Assembly (NCBI GenBank): GCA_002104535.1
Contig: NBOG01000002.1
Location: 1-64,000, forward strand
DNA: 64,000 nucleotides
Direction: 5' to 3'
Source of the DNA: Cognaticolwellia sediminilitoris
GTDB taxonomy: Bacteria; Pseudomonadota; Gammaproteobacteria; Enterobacterales; Alteromonadaceae
Below are positions 35,263 to 62,263 of this stretch, one piece after another (within the stretch, counting starts at the first letter, position 1; the number at the start of each line of letters is the position of its first letter). Both the position numbers and the translations under genes were made by a program. Below the pieces are notes generated by a model. It was given only the letters and a program-made list of their open reading frames with translations, made no database searches and was not told the DNA's origin.

Positions 35263-36990
35263 ATGTTGTTTATGCAGTGGTTATTTGTGTTGATATTTCT
35301 GTCAACATTAATAGCGCTTGTTCGTTTCCCGAGTATCCCTGAGCGAGTTTTTGGCAGCGCTACTTTAGCGTGTTTAGCTGCATCGTTTGTTTCTACAGAT
35401 GAAATTTTAGATAACGCAGTAAACCCAGGACTGGTAACTTTATTGTTATTAGTCTTGTGCTCATTCGCATATGAACGCACCAGTATTTTAAGACGTATTT
35501 CGGCATTTTTACTCAGTGGAAATGAAAAAACAGCTAGTGCCAAAACCTTAGCATTCACCGCGTTGAGTTCAGCTTTAATCAGTAACACCGCGGTTGTTGC
35601 AACATTAATTTCTACCGTAAAAAAGAACACTCTAGTTAATCCTGGAAAACTACTTTTACCGTTATCTTTTGCTGCTATTTTAGGTGGCACACTGACCTTA
35701 ATTGGCACTTCTACTAATTTGATTGTTAATTCTTTATGGATTAAACAAGGCCAACAAAGCTTTGGTTTTTTTGACTTTACGATTGTTGGTTTAGCCGCGT
35801 TAATTGTTTGTTTAGTGGTTATTCTTGTTCGACAAAATAGCCTCAAAGACATGAAGAAAGACGATTTAGCCGTTAAAGAATATTTAGTTGAAGCTAGGGT
35901 TAATGAAAATTCAAAACTGATCGGCAGAAGTATTGAAGATAATGGCTTACGAAATTTAGACTCATTGTTCCTTGTGGAGTTAGTACGTTCTGGACGATTG
36001 ATTTCTCCGGTTGCGCCCGATGAAGTGATTCAAAAATTTGATCGGTTAATTTTTAGTGGCGATATTAGCAAGGTATTGGTTTTACAACAGTTTGATGGTT
36101 TAAGCTTATTTGCTGAAAAAAATGGCTTATTGCGTGATAACTTAACCGAAGTATTGATTAAACCTGATTCTGCTATTGTCGGTAAAAGCTTAAAAAACGC
36201 AGGGTTTAGAGCTCGCTTTGACGCCGCTGTTGTCGCCATTCGCCGTGAAGGTATGTCACTATCAGGCAAGTTAGGTGATATAAAAATTCAACCGGGTGAT
36301 TTTCTGGTGCTGGCCGTTGGTAATGACTTTTCCTCGCGCACCAATTTAACGAAAAATTTCTATATACTTTCTGGCCATAAACCCGACAGCATGCTTTCAG
36401 GCTGGCGTGATTCGTTAGCTATATTTGGCTTTATGTTCGCGATTGCGTTAACGTTATTTACCCCAATAAGCTTACTTTCAAGTTTAATGTTTTATATCGC
36501 GGTGTTAATTTTAACCGGCTGCTTAACAGTTAATGAAATTAAACGTCGCTTTCCGATAGAAATTTGGCTGATTGTGCTCGGGGCGTTAACGTTGGCGCAA
36601 GCTTTTGAAAACAGTGGTGTTGCTGCTATATTTGCTGGAGAGATAGAACTATTACTGGCTGAGCAAAGTGCAATTATCGCCTTAGTCGTTATATTTTTTA
36701 TTACCTTGTTGCTCACTGAAGTGGTGACTAACAGCGCCGCGGCGGCATTGATATTCCCGATTGCCTATAATATCGCAATTGGTTTAGGCGTAAACCCATT
36801 ACCTTTAGTGATGGCAGTTGCCTTTGGCGCCAGTGGTAGTTTTATTAGCCCGTACGGTTATCAAACTAATATTATGGTATTTAATGCCGGCAATTATAAA
36901 ATATCAGACTTTGTTAAGTTTGGTTGGCCGATAACCGCAGCCTACAGCGCAGTGGTATTAACGTTGTTACCATTGGTTTATGCGTTTTAA
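35263..36990 (+). CDS. SLC13/DASS-type permease with two RCK_C domains, likely sulfate transporter
   Basis: This inner-membrane protein has 575 residues. N-terminal helices (about 1-190) include SNTAVVATLISTV (near 107-119) and GTLTLIGTSTNLIVNSLW (near 148-165), the sodium/anion symporter motif. Two soluble TrkA-C/RCK_C domains follow (about 205-290 and 293-370; EARVNENSKLIGRSIEDNGL and LIKPDSAIVGKSLKNAGF). The C-terminal helices carry EVVTNSAAAALIFPIA and FGASGSFISPYGYQTN. It lies between cysN and cysC, so sulfate uptake for PAPS synthesis is the natural guess; family members also move other anions. Confidence 0.86.
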   Translation: MLFMQWLFVLIFLSTLIALVRFPSIPERVFGSATLACLAASFVSTDEILDNAVNPGLVTLLLLVLCSFAYERTSILRRISAFLLSGNEKTASAKTLAFTALSSALISNTAVVATLISTVKKNTLVNPGKLLLPLSFAAILGGTLTLIGTSTNLIVNSLWIKQGQQSFGFFDFTIVGLAALIVCLVVILVRQNSLKDMKKDDLAVKEYLVEARVNENSKLIGRSIEDNGLRNLDSLFLVELVRSGRLISPVAPDEVIQKFDRLIFSGDISKVLVLQQFDGLSLFAEKNGLLRDNLTEVLIKPDSAIVGKSLKNAGFRARFDAAVVAIRREGMSLSGKLGDIKIQPGDFLVLAVGNDFSSRTNLTKNFYILSGHKPDSMLSGWRDSLAIFGFMFAIALTLFTPISLLSSLMFYIAVLILTGCLTVNEIKRRFPIEIWLIVLGALTLAQAFENSGVAAIFAGEIELLLAEQSAIIALVVIFFITLLLTEVVTNSAAAALIFPIAYNIAIGLGVNPLPLVMAVAFGASGSFISPYGYQTNIMVFNAGNYKISDFVKFGWPITAAYSAVVLTLLPLVYAF

Positions 36991-36996
36991 AAAAGT

Positions 36997-37213
36997 GGGG
37001 TCAGATACACTTTAATTAGCATTTAGTCTGAAGTTGTCAGTTGTCAGTTAAAAGAGAAGTTGGGAGTTTCGATTTTGCTTAAAGCTCAAAAAATTAGGGT
37101 CAGATACACTTTAATTAGCATTTAGTCTGAAGTTGTCAGCTGTCAGTTAAAAGAATAGTTTGGAGTTTCGGTTTTGATTTTGCTGAAAGCTCAGAACTGA
37201 AAACTTACAGCTT
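36997..37213. repeat. Tandem about 99-bp duplication carrying MITE half-ends and AGCTGTCAG repeats
   Basis: GGGTCAGATACACTTTAATT followed by AGCATTTAGTCTGAAGTTGT starts at 36998 and again at 37097. The following sequence (TCAGTTAAAAGA..AGTT.GGAGTTTCG.TTTTG...AAAGCTCA) also repeats, so the spacer holds two tandem copies of a composite unit. Each joins the left end of the MITE-like element to an AGCTGTCAG-type repeat, without the right terminal inverted repeat. No gene is present. Confidence 0.8.
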
Positions 37214-37233: not shown

Positions 37234-37833
37234 ATGAAAACTGAAAATACGGTGTGGCATCCACAGCAGGTAGAAAAGCAACAGCGTGCTGAGCTAAAAC
37301 AGCAAAAGCCTTGTTTGCTTTGGTATACCGGTCTTAGTGGTTCGGGTAAATCAACCATCGCCAATGCCGTTGATGCGATGCTATTTGAACGTTCTAGTCA
37401 TAGTTACTTACTCGATGGCGACAATGTTCGTCATGGTCTAAATGGTGATTTAGGTTTTAGTGATGAAGATCGCGTGGAAAATATTCGCCGTATTAGCGAA
37501 GTCGCAAAACTATTTGTTGATGCAGGTTTGATTGTCTCTACCGCTTTTATCTCGCCATTTCGTGCTGACAGAGCATTAGCACAAAGTAAATTAGCACAAG
37601 GTGAGTTCATTGAAGTATTTATTGATACGCCTATCGAGATTTGCGAGCAACGTGATCCAAAAGGGTTGTACAAGCTTGCTAGAGCTGGTGAGATTAAAGA
37701 CTTTACCGGTATAGATTCAGCTTACGAAACTCCCGAAAACGCACAAATTCATATCAACACCGCAAACAAAAGTATTGAACAATGCGCGCAGCAGGTTGTT
37801 GATTATTTAATTACACATGGCTTTATAAAATAA
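37234..37833 (+). CDS. Adenylylsulfate kinase
   Basis: This enzyme phosphorylates APS to PAPS, the universal sulfuryl donor. The P-loop GLSGSGKSTIANAV is at about residues 34-47, LDGDNVRHGLNGDLGFS near 60-76 and the lid/effector segment DPKGLYKLARAGEIKDFTGI near 140-159 as in bacterial CysC. It has 199 aa, the normal length. With cysD, cysN and the permease it makes a complete uptake-to-PAPS set. I see no cysH and no sulfotransferase in the window, so whether PAPS is used for assimilation or polymer sulfation is open. Confidence 0.96.
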   Translation: MKTENTVWHPQQVEKQQRAELKQQKPCLLWYTGLSGSGKSTIANAVDAMLFERSSHSYLLDGDNVRHGLNGDLGFSDEDRVENIRRISEVAKLFVDAGLIVSTAFISPFRADRALAQSKLAQGEFIEVFIDTPIEICEQRDPKGLYKLARAGEIKDFTGIDSAYETPENAQIHINTANKSIEQCAQQVVDYLITHGFIK

Positions 37834-37950
37834 AGCTTTAAGCTTTAAGCTTTAAGCTTTCAGTTTTGAGCTTTCAGCAAAATCAGAAGTAGAACCAAGA
37901 GTGTGACGCTTGTTTTGACTGACAGCTGACAGCTTTAAACTAAAAACTTA
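37832..37950. repeat. 7-bp microsatellite and AGCTGTCAG repeats after cysC
   Basis: Directly after the cysC stop, the heptamer TTAAGCT is repeated about four times in tandem (37832-37860). It leads into CTTTCAGTTTTGAGCTTTCAG and, near 37920, the complementary GACAGCTGACAGCTTTAAAC. It is non-coding and belongs to the family that fills neighbouring spacers. Confidence 0.75.
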
Positions 37951-39069: not shown

Positions 39070-39098
39070 GCTGTTTGCTAGCTGTTTGCTAGCTGTTT
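39070..39098. repeat. Short tandem repeat before galE
   Basis: The 11-mer GCTGTTTGCTA is repeated about 2.6 times in tandem between the DHH gene and galE. It is probably of no functional weight, but it is unstable by nature and close to the galE leader. Confidence 0.6.
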
Positions 39099-45426: not shown

Positions 45427-45745
45427 GTTATTAGTTTGAAGCTGTCAGCTGTCAGTACAAAAACAGAGCGTTCAGTTTAAAGCTATCAGTAAAGGCTAAA
45501 AACTAGAGGATAGTTGAGGGGGGTTGTGCTTTTACTGAAAGCTCAAAACTGACAGCTTATAGCTGATTTTTGTGCCATGGCGAGTAAACTCGCCCCTACG
45601 AATGAAGCAAAACTATCAGTTTGTAGCTGTAAGCTGTCAGTACAAAAACAAAGTTATTAGCTGCTTTTGTGTTTTACTGAAAGCTCAAAACTGAAAGCTT
45701 ACAGCTATGTTTGGTTTTACTGAAAGCTCAGAACTGACAGCTTAA
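45427..45745. repeat. Two AGCTGTCAG-family hairpin units around a REP unit
   Basis: This 430-bp spacer between the divergent-ended sigma and Bat operons is filled by two long imperfect hairpins. Each runs from an AAGCTGTCAG(CTGTCAG)TACAAAAACA left arm (near 45437 and 45628) to a TTTTACTGAAAGCTCAAAACTG right arm (near 45530 and 45673), with a further right arm near 45718. Between them is GGCGAGTAAACTCGCC (45580-45595) with its CCTAC tail. No gene is present. Confidence 0.8.
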
Positions 45746-45753
45746 AGCTCTGT

Positions 45754-47430
45754 TCAACTAGGGTTAATACTAAATGTCGTTTTGGTGGTTTTGATAGCGA
45801 TATTTTTATTCACCGCTTGAATGGCGTTGAGTAAGTTTTTACCTGACCATTGGTTTGGATTTTTACCATAATAACTTTGCTGTAGTTCAACGATAGCCTC
45901 AGACAATGCTTGGTCGTTAAAATAGTCATGTAATGAGTCTAATGTTGTCAGTGACTCTTTTTCGCTAGTGGGTGATGCTTGTGAACGCGCCCATGGCACT
46001 AATGCGGTTAATGCTGCTTCACCATTGTTTTGTTTACATGCGGCCATTAGCTCAAGTTGGTCATGATTGGCTTTTACCTGTCGAGACTTGCTTTTCTGTT
46101 GGCGACTGAAAGGACGTTTTGCAGAAATAAACCAAGCTAATGATGTTAATAACCAAAGGCTTAAAAATAGCCACTGCCAAACATTCGTTTGTTGCACGTA
46201 GACAGTTTCAACAACAGGTGAAGTTGTTGGATTTTCAATACTAACAGGGTTAGATTTTATTGGTGTCGTTGGCGCTAGATCAGCATTGGCTAAAATGGTG
46301 ACAGTTTGGGCAGGAATTGTCGCTATTTCAGCTTTATTAGTGATGGTATTCCACCATGGAATGCTAATTTCAGGTAATTGAAACTCTCCTGCTTTACTGG
46401 CAACAATAGCAAAGTTAATCACTTTTTGGCTGACTAAACGTTCATTGTTTAAGCCCGTATGTAGCTCGGCTTGATCAGGGTAAACTTTCAGCCCTTGTGG
46501 CACATCCATGGTAATTTCTGGTAACTGTTCTTCAGAAAGGCCCGCTGCTGTGAGTGTGATGGTGCGAGTGATAGGCTCTCCTACTTTGAATTCAATCGGT
46601 TCAGGTTGCCATTCTTGATGTAATGCTAACAGTTCACTTGGTAACCAAGCACCATCGACCTGTGTTGGGATAGCTTTAACCGTTAATTCAATATCATCGC
46701 CGACAACGCTGACGGGCTTGGTATCAGCAAAGCTTAAAAAGTTCGAACGTCTTGATGATTGCAGGATGATTTCACCTGAAAATACTGGAGACTTTAAAGT
46801 AACGTCACCACTTTCTTGCGGACTAATGGCATAAACTCGCTCGATAATACGGTAGCGTTTGCCATTAATAATATTTTCTGACTCTTTGTCTTTTCCTACT
46901 TGTAAAATATTGGCACCAGCTAATGATGGCTCGGTCAAACTGCCGCGCTTAAGTTCTGCTGCGAAGTGTAATTTTACCGTTAGGGTTATTTGTTGTTGCA
47001 CATAAATGTCAGTGGCAGAAACATCAGTGGTAATAAATAAGTCTTGCTGGCTGGAGGCTGGTAACTCATTAGCTGCTAGTGCTTTTATGGCAATAGGTTG
47101 GGTTTTAACACCGTCGATATCAAAGGCTGGAATAGTTAAATCACCCGGCTTACGTGCGATTAAAACTGTCGTCCACGTGGTGCTTCGCGAAGTTTTAAAG
47201 TTCACCATACTGGTTTGTGAACTGACCGACGTTCGACCGACAATAAAGTCGCGTAATAGCGCGGAAGTATCGAGTGCGTTGCTAGCAACATCGTCGTCGG
47301 CAGTTACCGTTAATACTAAGGATTCATTAACCACTACCGGGTTTTTATCAACGGTGGCTCTGACATTAGTTAACGCGTAGCTATTGAGTGAGAATAAAAC
47401 AGCTAATAATGAAATTATTACTCTTACCAC
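45754..47430 (-). CDS. BatD-family protein
   Basis: This 558-residue membrane-anchored periplasmic protein has a signal peptide (MVRVIISLLAVLFSLNSYA). The oxygen-tolerance (BatD) beta-sandwich region spans about 25-390 (VRATVDKNPVVVNESLVLTV at its start). A TM helix lies at about 418-438 (VWQWLFLSLWLLTSLAWFI) and a cytoplasmic tail follows. It is the last gene of the MoxR-Bat operon and overlaps BatB/C by 7 bases. Bat proteins are thought to support envelope integrity under stress; the exact role is unknown. Confidence 0.88.
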   Translation of the reverse strand: MVRVIISLLAVLFSLNSYALTNVRATVDKNPVVVNESLVLTVTADDDVASNALDTSALLRDFIVGRTSVSSQTSMVNFKTSRSTTWTTVLIARKPGDLTIPAFDIDGVKTQPIAIKALAANELPASSQQDLFITTDVSATDIYVQQQITLTVKLHFAAELKRGSLTEPSLAGANILQVGKDKESENIINGKRYRIIERVYAISPQESGDVTLKSPVFSGEIILQSSRRSNFLSFADTKPVSVVGDDIELTVKAIPTQVDGAWLPSELLALHQEWQPEPIEFKVGEPITRTITLTAAGLSEEQLPEITMDVPQGLKVYPDQAELHTGLNNERLVSQKVINFAIVASKAGEFQLPEISIPWWNTITNKAEIATIPAQTVTILANADLAPTTPIKSNPVSIENPTTSPVVETVYVQQTNVWQWLFLSLWLLTSLAWFISAKRPFSRQQKSKSRQVKANHDQLELMAACKQNNGEAALTALVPWARSQASPTSEKESLTTLDSLHDYFNDQALSEAIVELQQSYYGKNPNQWSGKNLLNAIQAVNKNIAIKTTKTTFSINPS

Positions 47431-49307
47431 TTTTTCTTAACTCCTACATTTCGGCGATCTTGGCGACGCTTTTGATATTCTAACTGCATTTTATTTCTGA
47501 GTAGCATATAGGGATCATCCGTTACTTTATTGAGTAACTGCTGATGTTTTTGTTCGGTTTCTTTGGCTAATTGTTCAGCCATCGCTTGCGCTTCAGCGCT
47601 TTGTTGCTCATTTTTTTCGTCCGCGTTTTCAGCTTGTTCCGCAGCTTTAGCCTGCTGTTCTTTTTGCTCTTGTTCTTGCGCTTCATTTTCTTGCTGCTGT
47701 TGCTGCTCGCTTTGTTCTTGCTGCTTGTCGTTCTCTTGTGAAGCGTCGCTTTGCTGGTTTTGATCTTGTTGTTCAGAGCTTTGCTGCGGCTGATTTTGCT
47801 GCTCGCTTTCTTCGCTTTCACCATTTTGGCTTTCGCTGTCTTGGCTATTACCGTCTTGGTTTTCGCCTTGCTGCTCTTGATCTTGTTTTTGTTCTTTATC
47901 CTTGTCTTGTTGCTGATCGTCACCGGATTGCTGCTGCTGGTTCTCTTGTTGTTGCTTTAATTGCTCAAGAATTTCCTTGTTCTCTTTAGCATCAGCTAGA
48001 TTAGGATCTCGTTGTAGCGCTTGCTCATAAGCTGCAATGGCTTCATCAAGTTTCTGCAATTTTGCTAAAGCATTACCTTGGTTATAAAGTGCTTCAGCGC
48101 TATTTTGTGTTTTAAATGCGGCTAATGCTTGTTCATAATCACCGGCTTTATAGTGCGCGCTACCTTGCCAAAGTGGGTCTTTAAACTGTTCTGCTGCTTG
48201 TTGGTATTCTTGTTTAATAAAATGCTCTTGGCCTTGTTGGTCTTTAGTTTTCCATAAGTCTTGCCAAATATCGGCATGAACTTTGTGTTGAGGAAATAGC
48301 ATTAACGCAAAGGGAAGAGTGACTAAAAGTGCTCCGCGACGAAAGTAGCTAAGCAGCATAGGTAGTACTAAAAATAGTAAGTAAGGACCAAATTCTTGCC
48401 ATTGATCCCCGGTATTTTCACTTTCTTTGGTTTGTTCTTTACCGGTATTTAACGGATGAACCGTAAGACGTTCAATATCTTTATTATCATGGGTTAAGGT
48501 GGTGTAGTTGCCTTTACCACGTTTCGCTAACCCTCTTAAAGCCTGCTCAGTTAATTTCGGCACTATGATGGCGCCGTTATCATCTTTCATTAATTCGCCA
48601 TTAATCAGTTTAATCGGCGCGCCTGCTTTAGTGCCAATGCCAAGAATATTCAGGCGATAAGGGTGTTCCCGTGACCATTCGGTAATATCTTGAATATCAA
48701 TATTATCAATGCCGTCAGTAAACCAATAGATGTCACCGCTGATATGACCGGCATTTACTAACATTTCATCGGCTAAGGTTAATGCTGCAAAAGGATTGCT
48801 GCCAAGCACAGGCATGAGTTCAGGGCTTAAAGAGGGCAACAGTAATTTGATATTATTAGTGTCATCGGTCAGTGGACTAATACTAAATGCGTCACCGGCA
48901 TAGGCGATAAGACCAATTTCACCGTCTTTAATACTATCGAGTAGATCAATGGCTTTGTAACGTGCACGAGTTAAGCGATTAGGCGCCACGTCGGTTGAGT
49001 ACATAGAATAAGACATATCCATGATCAATACTGAACCTTGTGCTACTTGGTAAACCGGTTGTGGTAATTTTTGCCAGCTTGGCCCTGCCATGGCAATAAT
49101 TGATAATAATCCAATCAAAAATGGCAAAATTAATGAGCTCGATTTTGCTTCGCTATTACCTTGAACTAATACTTTAGCAAGATGCGCAGGTATAAGTTGT
49201 TGCCAACCCGATTGTTTAACTCGTAGTCTTTTGAGTAAAAATAACATAAAAATTAACACGACAATGGCTAGTAGCCAAAGTGGTCGAATAAAATGAAAGT
49301 CAGCCAT
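47424..49307 (-). CDS. BatB/BatC fusion: VWA domain plus TPR repeats and glutamine-rich tail
   Basis: This 627-residue inner-membrane protein has two N-terminal TM segments (about 8-25 and 55-75). A VWA domain carries the MIDAS DxSxS in IMDMSYSMYSTD (near 95-106). A TM helix at about 310-325 is followed by TPR repeats (about 355-455, AEALYNQGNALAKLQKLDEAIAAYEQAL). A long Q/E/D-rich low-complexity region (about 458-590) precedes a basic C-terminus. In other species BatB and BatC can be separate; here they are fused. The Q-rich part makes spurious open frames on both strands. Confidence 0.9.
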   Translation of the reverse strand: MADFHFIRPLWLLAIVVLIFMLFLLKRLRVKQSGWQQLIPAHLAKVLVQGNSEAKSSSLILPFLIGLLSIIAMAGPSWQKLPQPVYQVAQGSVLIMDMSYSMYSTDVAPNRLTRARYKAIDLLDSIKDGEIGLIAYAGDAFSISPLTDDTNNIKLLLPSLSPELMPVLGSNPFAALTLADEMLVNAGHISGDIYWFTDGIDNIDIQDITEWSREHPYRLNILGIGTKAGAPIKLINGELMKDDNGAIIVPKLTEQALRGLAKRGKGNYTTLTHDNKDIERLTVHPLNTGKEQTKESENTGDQWQEFGPYLLFLVLPMLLSYFRRGALLVTLPFALMLFPQHKVHADIWQDLWKTKDQQGQEHFIKQEYQQAAEQFKDPLWQGSAHYKAGDYEQALAAFKTQNSAEALYNQGNALAKLQKLDEAIAAYEQALQRDPNLADAKENKEILEQLKQQQENQQQQSGDDQQQDKDKEQKQDQEQQGENQDGNSQDSESQNGESEESEQQNQPQQSSEQQDQNQQSDASQENDKQQEQSEQQQQQENEAQEQEQKEQQAKAAEQAENADEKNEQQSAEAQAMAEQLAKETEQKHQQLLNKVTDDPYMLLRNKMQLEYQKRRQDRRNVGVKKKW

Positions 49308-53058: not shown

Positions 53059-54366
53059 ATGACAAAATCAAAATTAGTTACAGGTAGTGGAGAGCGTATA
53101 GCAATAGTTGCTGGTTTGCGTACACCTTTCGCAAAACAAGCGACTGCTTTTCACGGTGTTCCTGCTGTCGATTTAGGCAAAATTGTTGTTAATGAATTAC
53201 TTAAAAAACACGATGTTGATCCCATGATTATCGACCAATTAGTGTTTGGACAAGTTGTACAAATGCCAGAAGCTCCAAATATCGCTCGTGAGATTGTGCT
53301 AGGAACCGGCATGAATGTGCATACGGATGCATATAGTGTGTCTCGTGCGTGTGCGACTAGTTTTCAATCAACAGTGAATGTAGCTGAGTCAATTATGGCT
53401 GGTTTTGTTGATGTTGGTGTTGCTGGTGGTGCTGATTCCTCTTCTGTTGCGCCAATTGGCGTGTCGAAAAAATTCGCTCGAACTTTATTAGATTTGAGCA
53501 AGGCTCGATCATTTGGACAAAAGCTGGCGCTAATTCGTCAACTTAACTTTAAAGACATATTACCGGTTCCTCCTGCTGTGGCAGAGTTCTCTACGGGGAT
53601 TTCTATGGGGCAAACTGCTGAGCAAATGGCAAAAACTCATAATATCAGTAGGGAAGATCAAGATGCACTAGCACATCGCTCACATACGTTGGCGACAAAA
53701 AACTGGCAAGAAGGCAAGCTTGATGGCGAAGTAATGACTGCCCATAGTGAACCTTATAAGTCATTTATTTCAAAAGATAACTGTATTCGAGAAAATTCTG
53801 AGTTAGCGAGTTACGCAAAATTACGTCCGGTTTTCGATCGTAAACACGGCACAGTAACAGCGGCAACTAGTACGCCATTAACGGACGGTGCGTCAGCAAT
53901 ATTAATGATGCGTGAAGGCCGAGCTAAAGAGTTAGGCTACAAACCACTAGGTTATATTCGAAGCTACGGTTTTGCTGCTATTGATGTTTGGGAAGATATG
54001 TTAATGGGACCAAGCTATGCAACGCCAATTGCGTTAAAGCGTGCAGGTATGAATTTAGCCGACTTAGACTTAATTGAGATGCATGAAGCATTTGCTGCAC
54101 AAGCCTTAGCGAACGTTAAAATGTTTGCCAGTAATAAATTTGCTCAAACACATCTTGGTCAAGATAAAGCAATTGGCGAAATTGATATGGACAAGTTCAA
54201 TGTTATGGGCGGCTCGTTAGCTTATGGCCATCCATTTGCTGCAACAGGTACGCGTTTGATAGTACAAACTTTGAATGAATTGAATCGTCGTGGCGGCGGT
54301 TCAGGCTTAACCACAGCTTGTGCGGCTGGTGGCTTGGGCGCGGCTATGATTGTGGAGACTGACTAA
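53059..54366 (+). CDS. Acetyl-CoA C-acyltransferase FadI (3-ketoacyl-CoA thiolase)
   Basis: This enzyme carries out the last step of the fatty-acid beta-oxidation spiral, cleaving 3-ketoacyl-CoA with CoA. The nucleophilic cysteine is in [19 protein letters not shown] (near residue 99), the histidine pair in [12 protein letters not shown] and [16 protein letters not shown], and the second cysteine in [13 protein letters not shown] near the end. ATG 53059 is preferred (GGAAATAAAA spacing) over ATG 53047. The length is 435 aa from there, typical of FadI rather than FadA. The stop overlaps the fadJ start (TAATG). Confidence 0.94.
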
Positions 54367-56525
54367 TGACTGAAGTAAAAGAAGCAAAGAAAACAAAAAA
54401 GCAAGAAACTAACAATACCTTTAGTTTAGTTCGTCATGAAAATGGCATTGCACATTTGATCATGGATGTTAAAGGCGATTCCATGAATACACTTAAAGCC
54501 GCATTTGCTGATGAAATAGCAAAGATTTTAACTGAGATCCGTGATGATAAGTCAATTATTGGCTTAGTGTTAGCGAGTGGTAAACCTGACTCATTTGTTG
54601 CTGGCGCTGATGTTCACATGTTGGCGAAATGCACAACAGCTGCGGAAGCCACGGCGTTGTCACGTCAAGGCCAAGTTATTTTTGATCAATTAGAAAACTT
54701 ATCTATTCCTGTTGTAGCTGCTGTTCATGGCGCTTGTTTAGGTGGTGGTCTAGAGCTCGCTATGGCTTGTCACGCTATTGTTTGTAGCGATAGTACTAAA
54801 ACAGCATTAGGCTTACCTGAAGTGCAATTAGGCTTGTTGCCTGGTGGTGGCGGAACGCAACGATTACCAAAGCGTGTTGGCATTCAAAAAGCATTAGATA
54901 TGATGCTCACAGGTAAACAATTACGCGCTAAGCAAGCATTAAAAGCTGGATTGGTTAGCGATGTAGTGCCAAACAGTGTTTTACTACAAACGGCCGAGCA
55001 ATTAGCGCTTTCTGGCAAAGTAAAACCTAAAGCACGTAAATTATCATTTATGGATAAAGCACTTGAAGGTAATGGCATTGGTCGCAGTATTTTATTTAAT
55101 CAAGCGACAAAAACAGTATTAAGCCAAACTAAAGGTAATTATCCTGCGCCATTGAAAATTATCGATTGTGTACGCGCTGGTGTTGAACAAAGTCCTGCGA
55201 AAGGGTATCAAGTTGAAGCTGATCTTTTTGGTCAGTTAGTGATGAGCAATGTTTCAGCACAACTTCGCCAATTATTTTTTGCAACGACTGATATGAAGAA
55301 AGAGCAGGGCGTTGAGGGTGTAGCTCCTGAAAAAATTGAGAATGTAGCTGTACTCGGTGGCGGCTTGATGGGCGGTGGTATCGCTTTTGTAACTGCAACA
55401 AAAGCAAAGTTACCAGTACGCATTAAGGATATTTCTCATAAAGGTATTAGTGCCGCGCTTAAATATGGTTATGACTTACTAAACAAGAAAGTTAAACGTC
55501 GATTTATTCGTCACAGTGAAATGCAAAATCAACTTGCATTAATCACAGGTACCACTGACTACACTGGGTTTAAAAATGTTGATATTGTTGTTGAAGCAGT
55601 ATTTGAAGATCTAACCTTGAAGCAAAACATGGTGGTAGATATTGAAAGTAACTGTAAAGAATCAACAATTTTCGCCAGTAACACTTCTAGCTTACCTATT
55701 GGTCAAATCGCTGAAAAAGCTTTACGCCCTGAAAATGTCATTGGACTGCATTATTTTTCACCGGTGGACAAAATGCCACTGGTAGAAATTATTGCTCACG
55801 ACAAAACCTCAGACAAAACTATTTCTACCACGGTAGCTTTTGCTAAAAAACAAGGCAAAACACCGATTGTTGTAAAAGACAAAGCTGGCTTTTATGTTAA
55901 CCGTATTCTAGCGCCTTATATGAACGAAGCTGCAATACTGTTACTTGAAGGTTGCTCTATTGAAGCGCTTGATAAAGCAATGGTTAAATTTGGTTTTCCT
56001 GTAGGGCCAATGCAATTGCTTGATGAAGTCGGTATTGATATAGGCGCTAAAATTGGACCAATATTGCAAGCTGAACTAGGCGACCGATTTGCACCGCCAC
56101 CGGCATTTTCAAAGTTGATAGATGACGGTCGTTTAGGTAAAAAAGCTAGCAAAGGCTTTTACCAATACAATACCAACAGTAAGCAGAAATTAGTCGACGA
56201 TAGTGTCTATACATTATTAGGGTTACAAGTTTCTAATACTTCAGTAACTGATGCTCAAGTAGAACGTTGTATCTATATGATGTTGAACGAAGCGGCACGC
56301 TGTCTAGATGAGAAAATTATTCGTAATGCTCGTGATGGTGACATTGGCGCTATTTTTGGTATAGGCTTTCCACCTTTTATTGGTGGGCCATTTAGATATA
56401 TGGATAAAATAGGCGCTGCAACCTTAGTCAGTAAATTGACACAGTTACAATCTGAGTTTGGCGAACGTTTTGAACCTTGTGATGCATTAGTGAAAATGGC
56501 AGAAAAAGGTGAAAGCTTCTATTAA
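54366..56525 (+). CDS. Fatty-acid oxidation complex alpha subunit FadJ
   Basis: This multifunctional enzyme of 719 residues has an N-terminal enoyl-CoA hydratase (crotonase) domain with [20 protein letters not shown] near 119-138 and [19 protein letters not shown] near 150-168. A 3-hydroxyacyl-CoA dehydrogenase has the Rossmann motif [12 protein letters not shown] near 329-340, followed by [17 protein letters not shown] near 458-474 and a C-terminal helical domain. It partners FadI. The one-base overlap with fadI indicates translational coupling. A terminator follows at 56581. Confidence 0.95.
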
Positions 56526-56580
56526 GCTTATCACTATAAGCGGTGCTTATTTGCCGTGAAGGTGGCAACACTTGACGAGA

Positions 56581-56607
56581 GAAGGGGCAATTTATTGCCT
56601 CTTTTTT
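56581..56607 (+). terminator. Terminator after fadJ
   Basis: A 10-bp stem (GAAGGGGCAA with TTGCCTCTTT, two G-T pairs, loop TTTA) is followed by a T run. It closes the fadIJ transcription unit. Confidence 0.85.
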
Positions 56608-56774
56608 ATACGCAATTCTAAAGTGAAGTCCGGAATGAAGTATTGAAAGTGGCTATTTAAAATAGAGGAATAAAAAGCTTATTTATTTTTTGAATATTTA
56701 CTCTAAACTTGATAATATGCGCGTGTTTAGTCAATCTTCTTTTGTAAGTATAATGTTTTCGTAGTGAGCAGAGC

Positions 56775-56978
56775 ATGATTTTATTACTTGTTGTTACTTT
56801 AGGTGTTGTTTTTTCTTTGTTTTTTTATTGCCAGGCAATTAGCAGCGGTTTAGGTGCTAAGCGTTGGGCAACGGCAGGTTTGATGTTTGGCCCATTCGTA
56901 TGGCCGATGTTTTGTATGAAGAAGCGCGTGAAAATATATCAGCGTTTTGGGTTTGATTGTTTATTGTTTTCTGCATAA
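56775..56978 (+). CDS. Small hypothetical membrane protein
   Basis: This 67-residue protein has one strongly hydrophobic N-terminal segment (MILLLVVTLGVVFSLFFYC) and a second weaker one (about 30-47, WATAGLMFGPFVWPMFCM), then a basic tail (KKRVKIYQRF). I do not recognise a family; the AGLMFGPFVWP segment resembles short uncharacterised membrane proteins of Alteromonadales. A GTGAGCAG stretch before ATG is a weak ribosome binding site. It stands alone downstream of the fadJ terminator. Function unknown. Confidence 0.6.
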   Translation: MILLLVVTLGVVFSLFFYCQAISSGLGAKRWATAGLMFGPFVWPMFCMKKRVKIYQRFGFDCLLFSA

Positions 56979-57093
56979 TAGGTAACTATTCCCTGTTTCT
57001 AACTTTCGTCTTTCATTCATAAAGATAAAGACGCTAACTTCCTTGTAGCGAAGTGTCCAATACTCAAATAGCTGTTCAGTTTGCTATTAGAGC

Positions 57094-57198
57094 TTAATTC
57101 CACCACGTGCTTGCAGGCATTTCTTTTATTTCAATGCTTGCAGCGATAGTGTTTTCTGTGTTTTCAACAATAAATAATGATTTAATTAAGTTGATCAT
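57094..57198 (-). CDS. 34-residue peptide gene downstream of the nonapeptide-repeat gene
   Basis: This short frame starts at ATG 57198, directly after a textbook TAGGAGG ribosome binding site (57201-57207) that overlaps the stop of the upstream repeat-protein gene. The peptide begins MINLIKSLFIV, has a polar middle (ENTENTIAASIEIKE) and ends MPASTWWN, with two tryptophans at the C-terminus. It has no cysteine and no clear signal peptide. I recognise no family. The ribosome binding site, spacing and position argue that it is translated as the second gene of a two-gene unit. Confidence 0.6.
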   Translation of the reverse strand: MINLIKSLFIVENTENTIAASIEIKEMPASTWWN

Positions 57199-57206
57199 AT
57201 AGCCTC

Positions 57207-57488
57207 CTAGATGCGAACTTGGTCTTTACGAGTACCGATGCGAACTTGGTCTTTACGAGTACCGATGCGAACTTGGTCTTTACGAGTACCGATGCGAACT
57301 TGGTCTTTACGAGTGCCGATGCGAACTTGGTCTTTACGAGTGCCGATACGAACTTGGTCTTTACGAGTACCGATGCGAACTTGGTCTTTGCGAGTACCAG
57401 TTACTTCAGTGTTAGAGCTAAATTCATTTAAGTTGGCTACTGCGGGTGTACCTGACATTACTAAAGATAGAATTAACGAACTAAGCAT
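57207..57488 (-). CDS. Predicted secreted protein of seven TRKDQVRIG nonapeptide repeats
   Basis: From ATG 57488 (AGGAAG 4 bases upstream) the product has 93 residues: a Sec-like hydrophobic start (MLSSLILSLVMSGTPAVA, likely cleaved after AVA), a short linker (NLNEFSSNTEVT), then seven identical GTRKDQVRI units up to the stop. Each unit is cationic (R, K, R against D), so the mature protein would be strongly basic. An in-frame ATG farther upstream would put charged/polar residues before the signal and lacks a ribosome binding site. I know no described family with this repeat. Function unknown; alternatives include a surface or ice/ion-binding repeat protein or a precursor of repeated peptides. 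Confidence 0.7.
   Translation of the reverse strand: MLSSLILSLVMSGTPAVANLNEFSSNTEVTGTRKDQVRIGTRKDQVRIGTRKDQVRIGTRKDQVRIGTRKDQVRIGTRKDQVRIGTRKDQVRI
57210..57398. repeat. Seven tandem 27-bp repeats
   Basis: The unit GATGCGAACTTGGTCTTTAC followed by GAGTACC is repeated seven times without spacers. Only scattered single-base changes are seen (for example GAGTGCC in two copies, GATACG in one, TTTGCG in the last), and all are synonymous in the - strand frame. The repeat length is a multiple of three, so other frames stay open as well, which explains long meaningless frames on the + strand. Confidence 0.95.
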
Positions 57489-57530
57489 ACTACTTCCTAT
57501 TAGATTATTATTATATTCGATAATGTATAA

Positions 57531-57545
57531 GCTAGAAGTGTGCCA
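57531..57545 (-). promoter_or_regulatory. Sigma-54 (RpoN) promoter candidate for the repeat-protein gene
   Basis: On the - strand, TGGCACACTTCTAGC matches the sigma-54 consensus TGGCACG-N4-TTGC at 9 of 11 fixed positions with the exact GG-to-GC spacing. Its position puts transcription start near 57519, about 30 bases before ATG 57488 with its AGGAAG. A sigma-54 promoter needs an enhancer-binding activator, which is not encoded next to it. Confidence 0.6.
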
Positions 57546-57548
57546 AAA

Positions 57549-57579
57549 GTTCAAGGCCTTTATTTATAAGGCTTTGAAC
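57549..57579 (-). terminator. Hairpin between the sensor gene and the repeat-protein promoter
   Basis: GTTCAAaGCCTT and AAGGCcTTGAAC form a 12-position stem with one mismatch and a 7-base loop, followed on the - strand by TTTT. It can end transcription of the large sensor gene that stops at 57629. Because it sits 4 bases upstream of the sigma-54-like element it could instead be a regulator site. Confidence 0.6.
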
Positions 57580-57628
57580 TTGGTCTGTAATGGAGGTTTA
57601 TGAGGCGCCAGAAAGTCGACACCTATTA

Positions 57629-60600
57629 TTAAAGGTTATTTGAACCAAACGAGGTTGATTTATTGGTAATTTGAAATGACAGTAAATATTTTTGAAAATC
57701 GTTTTCTGGGAGTGGTTTACTGTATAAGTAACCTTGTAGTTGCTCACAGCGTAACCCGGATAGAAAACTCAGCTGTTGATTGGTTTCAACCCCTTCTGCG
57801 ACTACTTGCATACCTAAGTTATGTGCGATAGTGACTATCGTAGCTACCATGTTACGGCCTTGCTCAGAGGTTTCTATATCATCAACAAAGGCTTTATCAA
57901 TTTTAAGCGTATTCAATGGGAATTTCTTCAAATAAGCTAGCGAAGAATAACCAGTACCAAAATCATCAAGCGATAAGTGGATACCCATGGCGCGAATTTG
58001 TAACATGGTATCAATGGCTTTTTGAGGTGAATCCATCACCGTACCTTCTGTGATCTCTAGTTCAAGGTATTTAGCCGGTAAACCGCTTTCTTTTAGAATA
58101 TCTGCAATCATCGCCACTAAGTTAGGCTGAGTAAATTGTACTGCCGATAAGTTCACTGCAACGCGACCGTCAAACAGGCCAGCATCAACCCATTTTTTTG
58201 TCGCAAAACAAGACTTTCTTAACACCACTTCACCGATGTCAATAATTTGTCCTGTTTCTTCTGAAACCGGGATAAATACCACAGGACTTATGATGCCTTT
58301 ACTAGGGGTTTCAAAGCGTACCAGTGCTTCCATACCTGCAATTTTACCCGTTGATATTTCAATTTTTGGCTGATAGAACACTGAAAATAAATCTTCTTTT
58401 AATCCGTGACGAATCAAGCTCTCAATTTGTAACCTTTTAACTGCAGTTTTGTTCATTGAGTCACTAAAAAATTGATATTTATTACCACCTGAATTCTTCG
58501 CATGATACATGGCGGTATCTGCATTTTTTAAGAGTTCGTGCGAGTTAGCTCCATCTTCAGGGTAAAGTACGATACCTATACTGCTATACAGAACAATTTC
58601 TTGGCTTTTTAACTTAAGCGGCAAAGCGATAGATTTTAAGACGCTTTTGGCAATTGAGGTGATGGTATGGATGTCGTTGGTGTTTTCAATAATTAAACTA
58701 AACTCATCGCCACCTAAGCGGTAAACTGTGTCTTGATTACGGCCTAATCCTCTAATGCGTTCAGCTACTTTACATAAGAGTGCGTCGCCAACCTCATGAC
58801 CGAGTGAGTCGTTAACTTTTTTAAAGTTATCTAAATCAAATACTAGTAAAGCATGAGGTATTTTACTTTTAACTAACCTTTGCTGGTTAGCTTGAAAATA
58901 CGCGCGATTTGGTAACTCAGTTAAAGTATCAGTGTTTGCAAGTTTACGTAGCTCTGCTTCAGTTTCTTTACGCTTGGTAATATCAGAAAACACACCGACA
59001 AAGTGCGATATATTGCCACTTTCATCACGAATGATATCAATGTTTAAGTCTGTTAGATAAATAGCCCCATTAGCACGTCTATTTTCAATTTCACCGTGCC
59101 AATTGCCTTTGGTGATTAAATGCTTTTTGACGTTTTGATTAAAGCTATCTGGGTATTGCTCAAACTTAAGCAATGTGCCGCGCATTTGTTGCTTACTTCT
59201 ACCGGTAATGCGCTGGAACGCTTTATTGACATCGACAACAGTAAATTGACGATCGTAAATAACAATGGCATCTGAAATGTTTTCGATACACTTTGCGAAC
59301 AGTTTTAACCGCTCATCAGCACGTTTTATTTGACTGATATCTTTTAGTGTTCCAGTCATTCGACTTGGGTTGTCTTTTTCATCTCGTTCGACAATTTTTC
59401 CGCGATCGAGGATCCAAATCCATTTATCGTCTTTGTCTTTTACTCGGTAAGTCGCTTCAAAATGCTCACTGCTATCTTCAAAGTGCTTGTTTAAGGCTTC
59501 GCGTACGCGTGGTATGTCATGATGGTGAATATTAGTTTGATCAGCTCCAACATTACGTTTACCGTCTTGTGGAAATTCTAAAATCCCCCAAATGTTAGAA
59601 CGAAATATTTTTCCACTCTTAATATTCCAATCCCACATTTCATCACCACTACCCCAAAGTGATAATTTTAAGCGTTCTTCACTGAGTTTGATTTGTAAAT
59701 GGTAAAGGCGCTTATGACGCATTTGCTGTAAGAAATAAGCAATAATCAGAAGTGTAACAAGTCCGTAAACTAATAATGCGCTCGTAGATAACCACCAAGG
59801 CGGCATGATGGTTAAATTTAACGGCTTAATTTTGCTTTGTTGGTTGTTTTGTAAGTCATAGGCTTGTACTTCAAAAGTATAATTCCCTGAGCTTAAATTT
59901 GTATAAGTCGCTCGAAGGTTATTCTTACCTGCATCAATCCAGTTTTGATCTAAGCCGATTAGTCGGTAGCGGTATTTTACATGATTAGGAAACTTAGCAT
60001 TCGGAGAAATAAATTCTATACTGAATTGTGACTGCTCGTGAGCTAAAGTTAATGTTTTAAGCGAATTAGGATTACGCTTCAAATGAAAAGAATTAATACC
60101 ATTTTTTGAAACCGGAACCTCTTTATTGGCGACTAGTATATTTGAAATATAGGGGGTTGGTAAACTTTGAGTAATTTGAAGGATATCTTGTGGTGAAAAT
60201 GCATGAAAACCATTAAAACCGCCAAAATAAATCACTTGTTCTTTAGTGATTAAAGAGCTGTCACTAATAAATTCATTGTCGTATAGCTTTAAGGCTTCAT
60301 TAAATGAACGTACTGCTTTCGTATTTGGATTAATTGTATTAATACCTTTATTCGTTGAAATCCAGGCATTTTCTGAGTTATCTGTTTGTATTGCCGCGAT
60401 AAAGTTATTAGATAAGCCTGTAGTCTCATCTATATTAATTTCATTTAAAGAGGTTCTATTTAGTAGAGTTATACCTTGATCTCTAGATCCAAGCCAAATC
60501 CAATTCTTTGATATTGAAATGCTTGAAATAAACTTTAAGCTGTTAATTTTTGATTTTAAAGTTGTTATTTTTTTAAATATTTTATCTTTGATATCAAACT

Positions 60601-62263
60601 TAATAATTTGATTACTATCGCTTGATAACCAAATATTTTGTTCAGAATCACTGGTGAAAGCAGTAAATTGTGAGTTTAATTCACTTTGATAAATGGAAAA
60701 CTCTCGACTGTCAGTATCATAGCTCGATAATTGACCTGATTTATCAAGGTACCATATATTTTTATCCGCAAATAAAAGCTTGCTATTGTCTCTCTGAGTA
60801 GACTTTTTTTCCCATTCTTTATGTTCCGTTAATACTTTTAAATTAGTTTGGTAATAGTAAAGGCTACCCGGCTCTGAAGGGGTTTCGGGTTCTGCTTTTA
60901 ACCAAAGGTTATCACTATCTGCGAGTAGGTGGCTAAAAGGCCTTACATCAGGGAAGGATATTGTATTAACTTTACCATCTTGCTTAATATTACTAAGGTA
61001 GCCACTATCGGTAGTAAACCATGTTGTGCCGTCAGGTGTTTCTGCAAATGCATAAACAGCTTGCTCAGAGTTAGTATAACTAAAAAGTCCGTGGTTTACT
61101 CTTAGTTGAATTGGACTAAAAGTGTTAATACCCCCAGCATTAGTACCTAGCCATATACTTCCTTCTTTATTTTTATAGACTTTATAAATGACGTCACTCG
61201 CAAGTGCGTTTTTATGTTGGGAGCTTTGAAATGAATTGACTTTACCAGTTAATATATTAATGCTATTTAAACCGTTCTCGGTTCCTAACCAAATAGCAGA
61301 ATCGTTTATTTGCTCAATTGAGCGAACGGTTTTTGATAATACTTGTAAATTTACGTCAAGGGTGTCTTCCGTATAATGTTTTATAATTTTATAATTTTGT
61401 GAAATTATATATAACCCGTTACTAGTGCCCAACCAGTATTGGTTATCAATAAACTTTAGATCGTACAACGCACTTGCGTTTAGTTCTAAATTCCCTTTAT
61501 TTTGGTCACGCAACGATACCACTGAAGACATAGTACTATTAGTTAAGAAAATACCTTCATCATAGGTACCTAACCAATAATTACCTTTTTGATCTTGAAA
61601 AATAGTTTTAATTTCTTTCAGTGCGCTTTCGAAGCCACGAAAGCGAATACGAGTAAAGCTGGAATTGTCGGGGTTAAACTTTTGTAAACCTTCTTTCGTT
61701 GAAATAAACAGTGTGTTTTTTTTGTCTTGATAAATGTCCCATATTTCATTATCTTTTAATGAGTTACTGTCGTTTTCTTGGTGTTGAAAGTTATCAAAAC
61801 TATCAAATACTTCGTTATATCGACTTAATCCGTTATTAGTACCTACCCATAGATTGTTCTTATTATCGATAAATAGTTTGCGAATGAAATTATCAGAAAT
61901 TGAATCAGGGTTATTACTTTCATGCCGGTAAGCAACAAAATTTTTACCGTCATATCTGTTTAATCCATCTTGAGTCGCCACCCAAATAAAACCATTTTTA
62001 TCTTGAATAATATCGTAAACATGGCTTTGTGATAAACCTTGCGCAATAGAAAGCCGTTCAAACTTTAGGGGGGGGTGGTTGATATTATTTTCGAGCGCGA
62101 GGGTTTTGTGACTTGGAAATAGAAAAAGTAGAATAGCCAAGAAAGCAAAATTTGCTGAAAAATTAGAAAATAACTTATTTTTAAAAAAATGCAAAAGCAC
62201 AAATACAACCTTTTGGTAGTGAAGCCCATACCTTAAAAACTTGAGACAATAGAGGTATGCCAT
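57629..62263 (-). CDS. Very large sensor: beta-propeller, Y_Y_Y, PAS, GGDEF and EAL domains
   Basis: This 1544-residue membrane protein for c-di-GMP signalling has a signal/TM segment at about 33-57. Two-component-regulator propeller repeats (about 65-740) show recurring IWVGTNNGL-like units (WVATQDGLNRYDG, LWVGTNNGLSRYN, IWLGTENGLNSI). A Y_Y_Y domain follows (about 750-820, YRYRLIGLDQNWIDA), then a TM helix (about 830-855) and two PAS/PAC modules (about 870-1100). The GGDEF domain has an intact GGDEF near 1184, and the EAL domain has EAL near 1312 and DDFGTGYSS near 1433. Both catalytic motifs look complete. It would sense a periplasmic ligand. The exact start is uncertain; other in-frame starts lie closer to the TM segment. 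Confidence 0.9.
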   Translation of the reverse strand: MAYLYCLKFLRYGLHYQKVVFVLLHFFKNKLFSNFSANFAFLAILLFLFPSHKTLALENNINHPPLKFERLSIAQGLSQSHVYDIIQDKNGFIWVATQDGLNRYDGKNFVAYRHESNNPDSISDNFIRKLFIDNKNNLWVGTNNGLSRYNEVFDSFDNFQHQENDSNSLKDNEIWDIYQDKKNTLFISTKEGLQKFNPDNSSFTRIRFRGFESALKEIKTIFQDQKGNYWLGTYDEGIFLTNSTMSSVVSLRDQNKGNLELNASALYDLKFIDNQYWLGTSNGLYIISQNYKIIKHYTEDTLDVNLQVLSKTVRSIEQINDSAIWLGTENGLNSINILTGKVNSFQSSQHKNALASDVIYKVYKNKEGSIWLGTNAGGINTFSPIQLRVNHGLFSYTNSEQAVYAFAETPDGTTWFTTDSGYLSNIKQDGKVNTISFPDVRPFSHLLADSDNLWLKAEPETPSEPGSLYYYQTNLKVLTEHKEWEKKSTQRDNSKLLFADKNIWYLDKSGQLSSYDTDSREFSIYQSELNSQFTAFTSDSEQNIWLSSDSNQIIKFDIKDKIFKKITTLKSKINSLKFISSISISKNWIWLGSRDQGITLLNRTSLNEINIDETTGLSNNFIAAIQTDNSENAWISTNKGINTINPNTKAVRSFNEALKLYDNEFISDSSLITKEQVIYFGGFNGFHAFSPQDILQITQSLPTPYISNILVANKEVPVSKNGINSFHLKRNPNSLKTLTLAHEQSQFSIEFISPNAKFPNHVKYRYRLIGLDQNWIDAGKNNLRATYTNLSSGNYTFEVQAYDLQNNQQSKIKPLNLTIMPPWWLSTSALLVYGLVTLLIIAYFLQQMRHKRLYHLQIKLSEERLKLSLWGSGDEMWDWNIKSGKIFRSNIWGILEFPQDGKRNVGADQTNIHHHDIPRVREALNKHFEDSSEHFEATYRVKDKDDKWIWILDRGKIVERDEKDNPSRMTGTLKDISQIKRADERLKLFAKCIENISDAIVIYDRQFTVVDVNKAFQRITGRSKQQMRGTLLKFEQYPDSFNQNVKKHLITKGNWHGEIENRRANGAIYLTDLNIDIIRDESGNISHFVGVFSDITKRKETEAELRKLANTDTLTELPNRAYFQANQQRLVKSKIPHALLVFDLDNFKKVNDSLGHEVGDALLCKVAERIRGLGRNQDTVYRLGGDEFSLIIENTNDIHTITSIAKSVLKSIALPLKLKSQEIVLYSSIGIVLYPEDGANSHELLKNADTAMYHAKNSGGNKYQFFSDSMNKTAVKRLQIESLIRHGLKEDLFSVFYQPKIEISTGKIAGMEALVRFETPSKGIISPVVFIPVSEETGQIIDIGEVVLRKSCFATKKWVDAGLFDGRVAVNLSAVQFTQPNLVAMIADILKESGLPAKYLELEITEGTVMDSPQKAIDTMLQIRAMGIHLSLDDFGTGYSSLAYLKKFPLNTLKIDKAFVDDIETSEQGRNMVATIVTIAHNLGMQVVAEGVETNQQLSFLSGLRCEQLQGYLYSKPLPENDFQKYLLSFQITNKSTSFGSNNL

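Follow-up and report, generated by a model that had tools for sequence, protein, structure and literature searches.

Two small genes lie between fadJ and the gene of a large GGDEF-EAL sensor protein on the minus strand of the Cognaticolwellia sediminilitoris DNA analysed here, and the question raised by this locus is what such a pair makes and to which regulatory circuit it belongs. By the window we mean the whole stretch of DNA that was analysed, 64,000 nucleotides in length. A first-pass annotation had described a sigma-54-type promoter followed by genes for a secreted nonapeptide-repeat protein (ORF1) and a 34-residue peptide (ORF2). All coordinates and minus-strand elements that it claimed were found in place, among them seven protein-identical GTRKDQVRI units and a TAGGAGG site overlapping the ORF1 stop. 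The layout of the locus is as follows.

57629..62263, minus strand: sensor gene (1544 aa), with a periplasmic propeller of the Reg_prop/Y_Y_Y type, PAS, GGDEF and EAL domains according to Pfam
57605..57622, minus strand: palindrome GTGTCGACTTTCTGGCGC 5' of the operon, from the sequence
57607-57620, minus strand: FleQ/FlrA-like core (GTCA-N6-TGAC, 2 mismatches) inside the palindrome, from the sequence compared with the published consensus
57547..57581, minus strand: inverted repeat between sensor gene and promoter, from the sequence
57531..57545, minus strand: sigma-54 -24/-12 core TGGCACACTTCTAGC, from sequence and conservation
57207..57488, minus strand: ORF1 (ATG at 57488), 93 aa, hydrophobic N-terminus followed by basic repeats, pI 11.6
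57210..57398, minus strand: array of seven GTRKDQVRI units of 27 bp each, from tandem-repeat detection
57203..57209, minus strand: TAGGAGG, which overlaps the stop codon of ORF1 and is the ribosome-binding site for ORF2
57094..57198, minus strand: ORF2, 34 aa, MINLIKSLF...IEIKEMPASTWWN, C-terminus MPASTWWN
57032..57050, minus strand: CGCTACAAGGAAGTTAGCG, predicted hairpin with ACAAGGA, a CsrA-like site 3' of ORF2
54366-56525: fadJ, convergent with the operon

The inverted repeat is possibly the terminator of the sensor gene. No terminator-like sites were listed in 56500-57800, and known RNA families gave no match at E<=1 in 56000-58500.

ORF1 homologues at E<1e-3 are present in 20 of 60 genomes: the window's own, all 16 others of the genus and three of other genera. 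Among the related named records are Cognaticolwellia mytili, Colwellia polaris and Colwellia species, and weaker matches alone in nine further genomes were taken as chance. ORF2 follows ORF1 in 18 of 18 uncut loci among the first 20, loci cut by a contig end being set aside. Among 295 genomes of the family, 89 have an ORF2 match at E<=1, 70 of these at E<=1e-3, all such counts being phylogenetically non-independent. Forty loci outside the genus were fetched (36 of 54 at E<=1e-3, and four weaker), and an ORF1-like repeat or basic gene lies 5' of ORF2 in each of the 36 that have upstream contig; L067, L072, L088 and L099 end at a contig edge, and the ORF1 start codon of L080 is uncertain. The earlier view that the two frames form a genuine gene pair, which had been tied to the presence of a homologous pair in relatives, is borne out, as ORF1 and ORF2 are conserved together across many genera of the family.

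The statement that no described family is involved also held: ORF1 and ORF2 of the window stay below every curated cut-off in Pfam and NCBIfam, have no match at all in PADLOC and have weak matches alone in PHROGs. In two repeat-rich relatives POMP_repeat, DUF7239 and Leader_Erm exceeded the cut-off on repeat stretches, hits that we judged to be chance. Cargo of a mobile element was considered and rejected, given chromosomal synteny and a tblastn search with ORF2 in which none of 50,697 phage and 72,556 plasmid records matched at E<=1. At the level of the order, the ORF2 profile matched 17 of 345 genomes at E<=0.1 and a profile of the short relatives of ORF1 (described below) matched 22 of 247 at E<=0.05; the matches outside the family (f1) are weak (best about 0.005) and mostly within long frames, and were taken as chance, while two of them sit in frames of 73-78 aa (G388, G493). 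Four peptide strings of the operon were found in no paper text of the open-licence library searched, and the listings of further literature searches showed nothing on the operon. The operon is without a family in the libraries searched and without a fitting known system, and its products may stand in databases as unnamed hypotheticals.

The array of ORF1 has a 27-bp period, 7.0 copies and 96% matches. The units are species-specific: within the genus we found GTRKDQVRI, GTRRGQVRI, GTKRNQVRI, GTRPGTVRI, ATRRGMIRI and GSRRGAKRI, and in other genera units such as ARRDVRI, GRKGIRI, SKRGLRI, SQKRRESRI and GDNRIRIQPA. Acidic spacers alternate with basic units in many species, and 51 of 55 ORF1 proteins contain a repeated 5-residue word. 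When neighbouring copies were compared over whole periods in 50 arrays (2298 comparisons), 404 codon differences were synonymous and 121 nonsynonymous, a ratio of nonsynonymous to synonymous changes that is ∼0.10 of the expectation under no selection. Picking units by protein identity gave 243 versus 9, counts that are biased by that choice, and 404 versus 121 is the fairer comparison. Synonymous sites account for most differences between the copies of one array, and the unit is therefore under selection at the protein level. The DNA of the copies drifts and the protein unit is largely kept, and between species the unit is swapped as a block. The C-terminus has the form Phi-[RK]-Phi in 35 of 52 complete ORF1 proteins, and net charge is positive in 50 of the 52. 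Structure prediction returned a mean pLDDT of 44 for ORF1 and 65 for ORF2, the low-confidence ORF1 model being as expected for disorder. Antisense frames over the array are open in the window (57211-57603 and 57219-57431, plus strand) because the 27-bp period is a multiple of 3; we rejected them as genes and regard them as shadows of that period, every ORF1 antisense frame having a stop in 36 of 55 loci.

The majority pattern of ORF2 over 37 sequences is MIxLIKxLF...IAAxIEIKEMPAxxWWx; a few of the sequences lack the WW. Against solved structures the ORF2 profile gave two weak lufaxin matches alone (E about 0.2). Two tandem ORF2-like genes are found in ten loci of genus g76 (L082-L086, L088, L092, L094, L096 and L098).

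Upstream of ORF1, the strict core TGGCAY-N7-GC occurs within 170 nt in 52 of 55 loci, compared with a shuffled mean of 0.05 per 55 regions, and the remaining three loci retain GG-N10-GC (5 of the 60 loci, in which the ORF1 start is uncertain or lies beyond the contig end, were omitted). The sigma-54 consensus has TTGC in its -12 part, and the second T is replaced by C or A in 44 of the 52 cores. With the strict core at the orthologous position across the family, the sigma-54-type promoter proposed at first pass stands. A further box was sought in 54 intergenic regions, each running from the stop codon of the sensor gene to the sigma-54 core. GTCA-N6-TGAC with at most one mismatch is present in 33 of them (11 of the 17 from the genus and 22 of the 37 from other genera), ten being exact; the shuffled values are 1.7 and 0.07. 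The box is specific to the N6 spacing, as half-sites 3, 4, 5, 7, 8 or 9 nt apart occur in 1-3 regions each, and three other palindromes at seven spacings occur in 0-10 regions, the highest being TGAC-N3-GTCA. It fits the FleQ consensus GTCaNTAAAtTGAC as given in excerpts of two papers (PMC6120874, PMC10723142), and would thereby point to a FleQ/FlrA-type activator; the same consensus is judged unreliable in P. fluorescens F113 in the excerpt of the former (PMC6120874). The box is present in the family at large and weak in the window, whose copy has 2 mismatches. The window's palindrome pattern was uninformative about a regulon, with 6 sites genome-wide at up to 2 mismatches, its own counted, and 4 for the reversed control. 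The genome carries one FleQ-domain gene and one csrA. Under FleQ-type control the operon would be expected to respond to c-di-GMP and to be expressed together with the flagellar genes.

A second element lies downstream. Of the 57 loci with sufficient sequence, 43 carry ACANGGA in the 130 nt following ORF2, where shuffles average 1.6; outside genus g76 the figure is 43 of 45. The other 14 loci (12 of 12 from g76, L081 and L087) lack it within 400 nt as well, and a covariance model found nothing at E<1 in them; the ten g76 loci with a doubled ORF2 are among those without the element. Excerpts of one study give the CsrA SELEX consensus as RUACARGGAUGU (PMC7652899), which the motif fits, making it a candidate CsrA site. 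Loci were selected on ACA and GGA, so that no variation can be seen in these columns of the alignment. Hairpin positions pair in 80% of cells versus 27-46% when slid, and covariation is not clearly above that of shuffles, 41 of 500 of which reach the observed count of double changes; RNAalifold predicted no pairs on the hairpin alignment, and L063 and L066 have no convincing hairpin at the element. Elsewhere in the window genome the hairpin model found no site at E<1 among 150 scored of 1344 candidates, the operon's own site being part of the model.

The neighbourhood places the operon next to a c-di-GMP enzyme. The N-terminus of the sensor protein is matched by PDB 4a2l, a hybrid two-component sensor, and its GGDEF and EAL motifs are both present. 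Across 60 loci (L061-L120) the sensor gene lies 5' in 55 and fadJ lies 3' in 56. Contig ends account for four of the five cases in which the sensor is missing and for three of the four in which fadJ is; the exceptions are L090 (G307), truly without the sensor there, and L100 (G194), with other genes instead of fadJ. In G307, ORF1 and ORF2 sit at fadJ and the sensor orthologue is elsewhere (G307:C1:1935058-1939611), with one in-frame TAA. Further members of the neighbourhood by Pfam are an M16 peptidase, a histidine phosphatase, Smr, a thiolase, a MoxR-type AAA protein, DUF58, DUF4381 and VWA; the neighbours scanned, out to about 9 kb, include no RiPP-type modifying enzyme or dedicated exporter.

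Several side observations concern the same DNA. Between fadJ and the operon lies a hydrophobic 67-aa ORF (56775-56978, plus strand) that no Pfam family matches at E<=1e-3. It has counterparts at E<=1e-3 in 55 of the 60 fetched loci and is a second small membrane protein without a name. In one relative (G001:C1:3820540-3822659) fadJ is in two overlapping pieces, a frameshift or a sequencing error. Other tandem repeats in the window are at 36989-37176 (99 bp x1.9), 37833-37878 (7 bp x6.6), 39070-39098 (11 bp x2.6), 45666-45754 (43 bp x2) and 47803-47867 (30 bp x2.1).

Genomes without a strong ORF2 match offered a comparison. From part of these we took 60 slots downstream of fadJ, 59 after exclusion of L171, which is too short. 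Here we found short relatives of ORF1, with the start MLKAYAxAL..., of 44-80 aa, mostly 44-57 aa, and with the same promoter core. They are mostly repeat-free and, in the slots examined, stand nowhere but beside the sensor gene. The short gene occurs in 25 of 35 slots with a GGDEF-EAL gene within the fetched 2.1-6.2 kb, and in none of the 24 without such a gene in the fetched DNA. All 25 genomes with the short gene have a sensor frame of at least 1474 aa, and 6 of the 10 slots with a GGDEF-EAL gene but no short gene have a frame of 678-760 aa alone; G018, G126, G153 and G067 have a long adjacent sensor frame yet no short gene was found there. In G133 and G030 the sensor gene is at a distance from fadJ, and it is the sensor gene that the short gene adjoins, together with its promoter. 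No short gene was seen beside shorter sensor-like genes of other genomes fetched, and no ORF2 beside the short relatives; G116 and G077 have no ORF2 match and a best match to the long sensor of at most 34%. The ends WKPGSVRI, GVRAGTVRF and GTRKDQVRI share the Phi-[RK]-Phi terminus, which is found in 10 of 27 short genes. Exact 7-residue repeats in 5 of the 27 suggest that repeat expansion may have arisen more than once. Net charge is near 0 in several short relatives, and ACANGGA is present at 3 of 27 short-gene loci.

Within the sensor the propeller diverges quickly, at 63% mean identity compared with 96% for EAL in 16 sequences of the genus. Coevolution of repeat unit and propeller as ligand and receptor was tested and rejected: with output domains corrected for, the distances gave a partial r of 0.12 (permutation p 0.12, 17 species). 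As a separate observation, propeller and output-domain distances are weakly correlated (r 0.21; 17 species, genus loci L101-L119), hinting that the sensor part may be exchanged or unevenly evolving.

The earlier claim that ORF1 is secreted is not established. A hydrophobic N-terminal stretch is present in 54 of 54 ORF1 proteins, where it is strongly conserved (MLSSLILSLxMSxTP), and in 27 of 27 short relatives. The basic n-region is absent, none of the 54 ORF1 proteins having K or R in residues 2-16, which is unusual for a Sec signal; in residues 2-6, K or R is found in 0 of 54 ORF1 proteins versus 27 of 27 short relatives in other genera. ORF1 is probably exported.

The combination of a sigma-54 core with a FleQ-like box, an adjoining c-di-GMP sensor enzyme and a CsrA-like site would place the operon in the circuit that governs motile and sessile life. 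We lean, tentatively and at somewhat less than an even chance, towards a FleQ/FlrA-driven sigma-54 operon of a probably exported, multivalent basic protein and a peptide, which shares its motile/sessile circuit with the propeller-sensor GGDEF-EAL protein next door. On this model a FleQ/FlrA-type activator would probably drive transcription, and ORF1, small, intrinsically disordered and probably exported, would work through a short basic motif ending in Phi-[R/K]-Phi, single in most short relatives and multiplied in tandem in ORF1. For ORF2 the model has a peptide of some 30-38 residues whose N-terminus is amphipathic and whose C-terminus mostly carries WW. The multivalent protein would work in the periplasm or at the surface, where the propeller of the sensor lies, and CsrA may add control through the hairpin 3' of ORF2 in most of the Colwellia-like clade.

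The same genes could be read in other ways. ORF1 might be secreted and, as a polycation, glue the matrix together by binding to acidic polysaccharide, extracellular DNA or LPS, independently of the sensor and with ORF2 as a membrane-binding helper; we find this conceivable but doubtful. Such a role would suit the almost uniformly positive charge, a structure model of the low confidence that goes with disorder and the acidic spacers between basic units, and adhesin and polysaccharide genes are FleQ targets according to excerpts of PMC10723142. The short relatives, mostly 44-57 aa long and several of them near neutral, fit it less well, and a tie to the sensor gene would be unexpected for a generic glue. 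If ORF1 were instead a multi-copy precursor from which identical short peptides are released (as signals, antimicrobials or modified products), units should be alike within a species and unlike between species, and both the selection that upholds unit identity within arrays and the species-specific units agree with this, as does an M16 (insulinase/PqqF-like) peptidase gene just past the sensor gene. That gene is there also in genomes without the operon, however, no tailoring enzyme or dedicated exporter is among the neighbours scanned, and most short relatives have a single motif; a precursor seems unlikely to us. Direct sensing of ORF1 by the neighbouring propeller as an autocrine ligand strikes us as distinctly unlikely. 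Linkage to the long sensor, co-absence with it and the fast divergence of the propeller are what this idea would explain, but unit and propeller distances are uncorrelated and fast-evolving sensor domains are common.

Two further readings dispense with the protein. The transcript itself might be the product, a CsrA-sequestering mRNA in which the small proteins are incidental. Despite the ACANGGA element at 43 of 57 loci, we think this very improbable in view of the strong purifying selection on the protein, the single strong site, and the distribution of the element, which is missing from all 12 g76 loci and from 24 of the 27 loci with the short gene. A neutral minisatellite with chance ORFs would account for a 27-bp period that is a multiple of 3 and for the antisense frames open in the window; it is contradicted by the conservation of ORF1, ORF2 and the promoter, by the codon differences within arrays and by the antisense stops, and its probability is close to nil.

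The operon matters in several respects. It comprises two orphan small proteins, and its promoter, upstream box and downstream element recur across genera; the family-wide box, the CsrA-like element and the repeat-free relatives by the sensor make it part of a c-di-GMP neighbourhood and not an isolated oddity. The evidence suggests a single small target on which three global switches converge, namely sigma-54/FleQ, c-di-GMP and CsrA. The array is a clean case of a unit that selection keeps near-identical inside one genome and that is exchanged wholesale from species to species. A real tie to the sensor would supply a candidate ligand or effector for the propeller-GGDEF-EAL architecture. A fuller autocrine peptide system, with many identical, exported copies of a species-specific nonapeptide read by the propeller of the adjacent sensor, whose domains make and break c-di-GMP, under sigma-54/FlrA and CsrA control, is a long shot; were it true, a self-homogenising repeat array would let Gram-negative cells take the measure of their own kind.

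Known systems resemble the operon in part. Curli are functional amyloids with short sequence repeats and a major/minor pair; ORF1 has short sequence repeats and might form such a pair with ORF2, but the neighbours scanned include no accessory secretion gene, the ORF1 model is of low confidence and ORF2 is not related to the repeats. Multicore peptide precursors are exemplified by RiPP precursors and yeast alpha-factor. ORF1 is like them in carrying tandem identical short units after a leader-like N-terminus, and unlike them in the lack of a modifying enzyme among the neighbours scanned and in its mostly single-motif short relatives. With mRNAs bound by CsrA/RsmA the operon shares ACANGGA in a predicted hairpin, although this candidate site lies 3' of the last gene and not at a ribosome-binding site. 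The sensor gene has the same kind of periplasmic part as the Reg_prop/Y_Y_Y hybrid two-component sensors (PDB 4a2l), joined to a GGDEF-EAL output instead of a kinase. The c-di-GMP-responsive sigma-54 regulon of FleQ/FlrA differs in that the operon genes are not recognisable flagellar, adhesin or polysaccharide genes, the window box is degenerate and binding is putative, but it is like the operon in the sigma-54 core, the GTCA-N6-TGAC box of the family, the c-di-GMP enzyme next door and the single FleQ-domain gene of the window genome.
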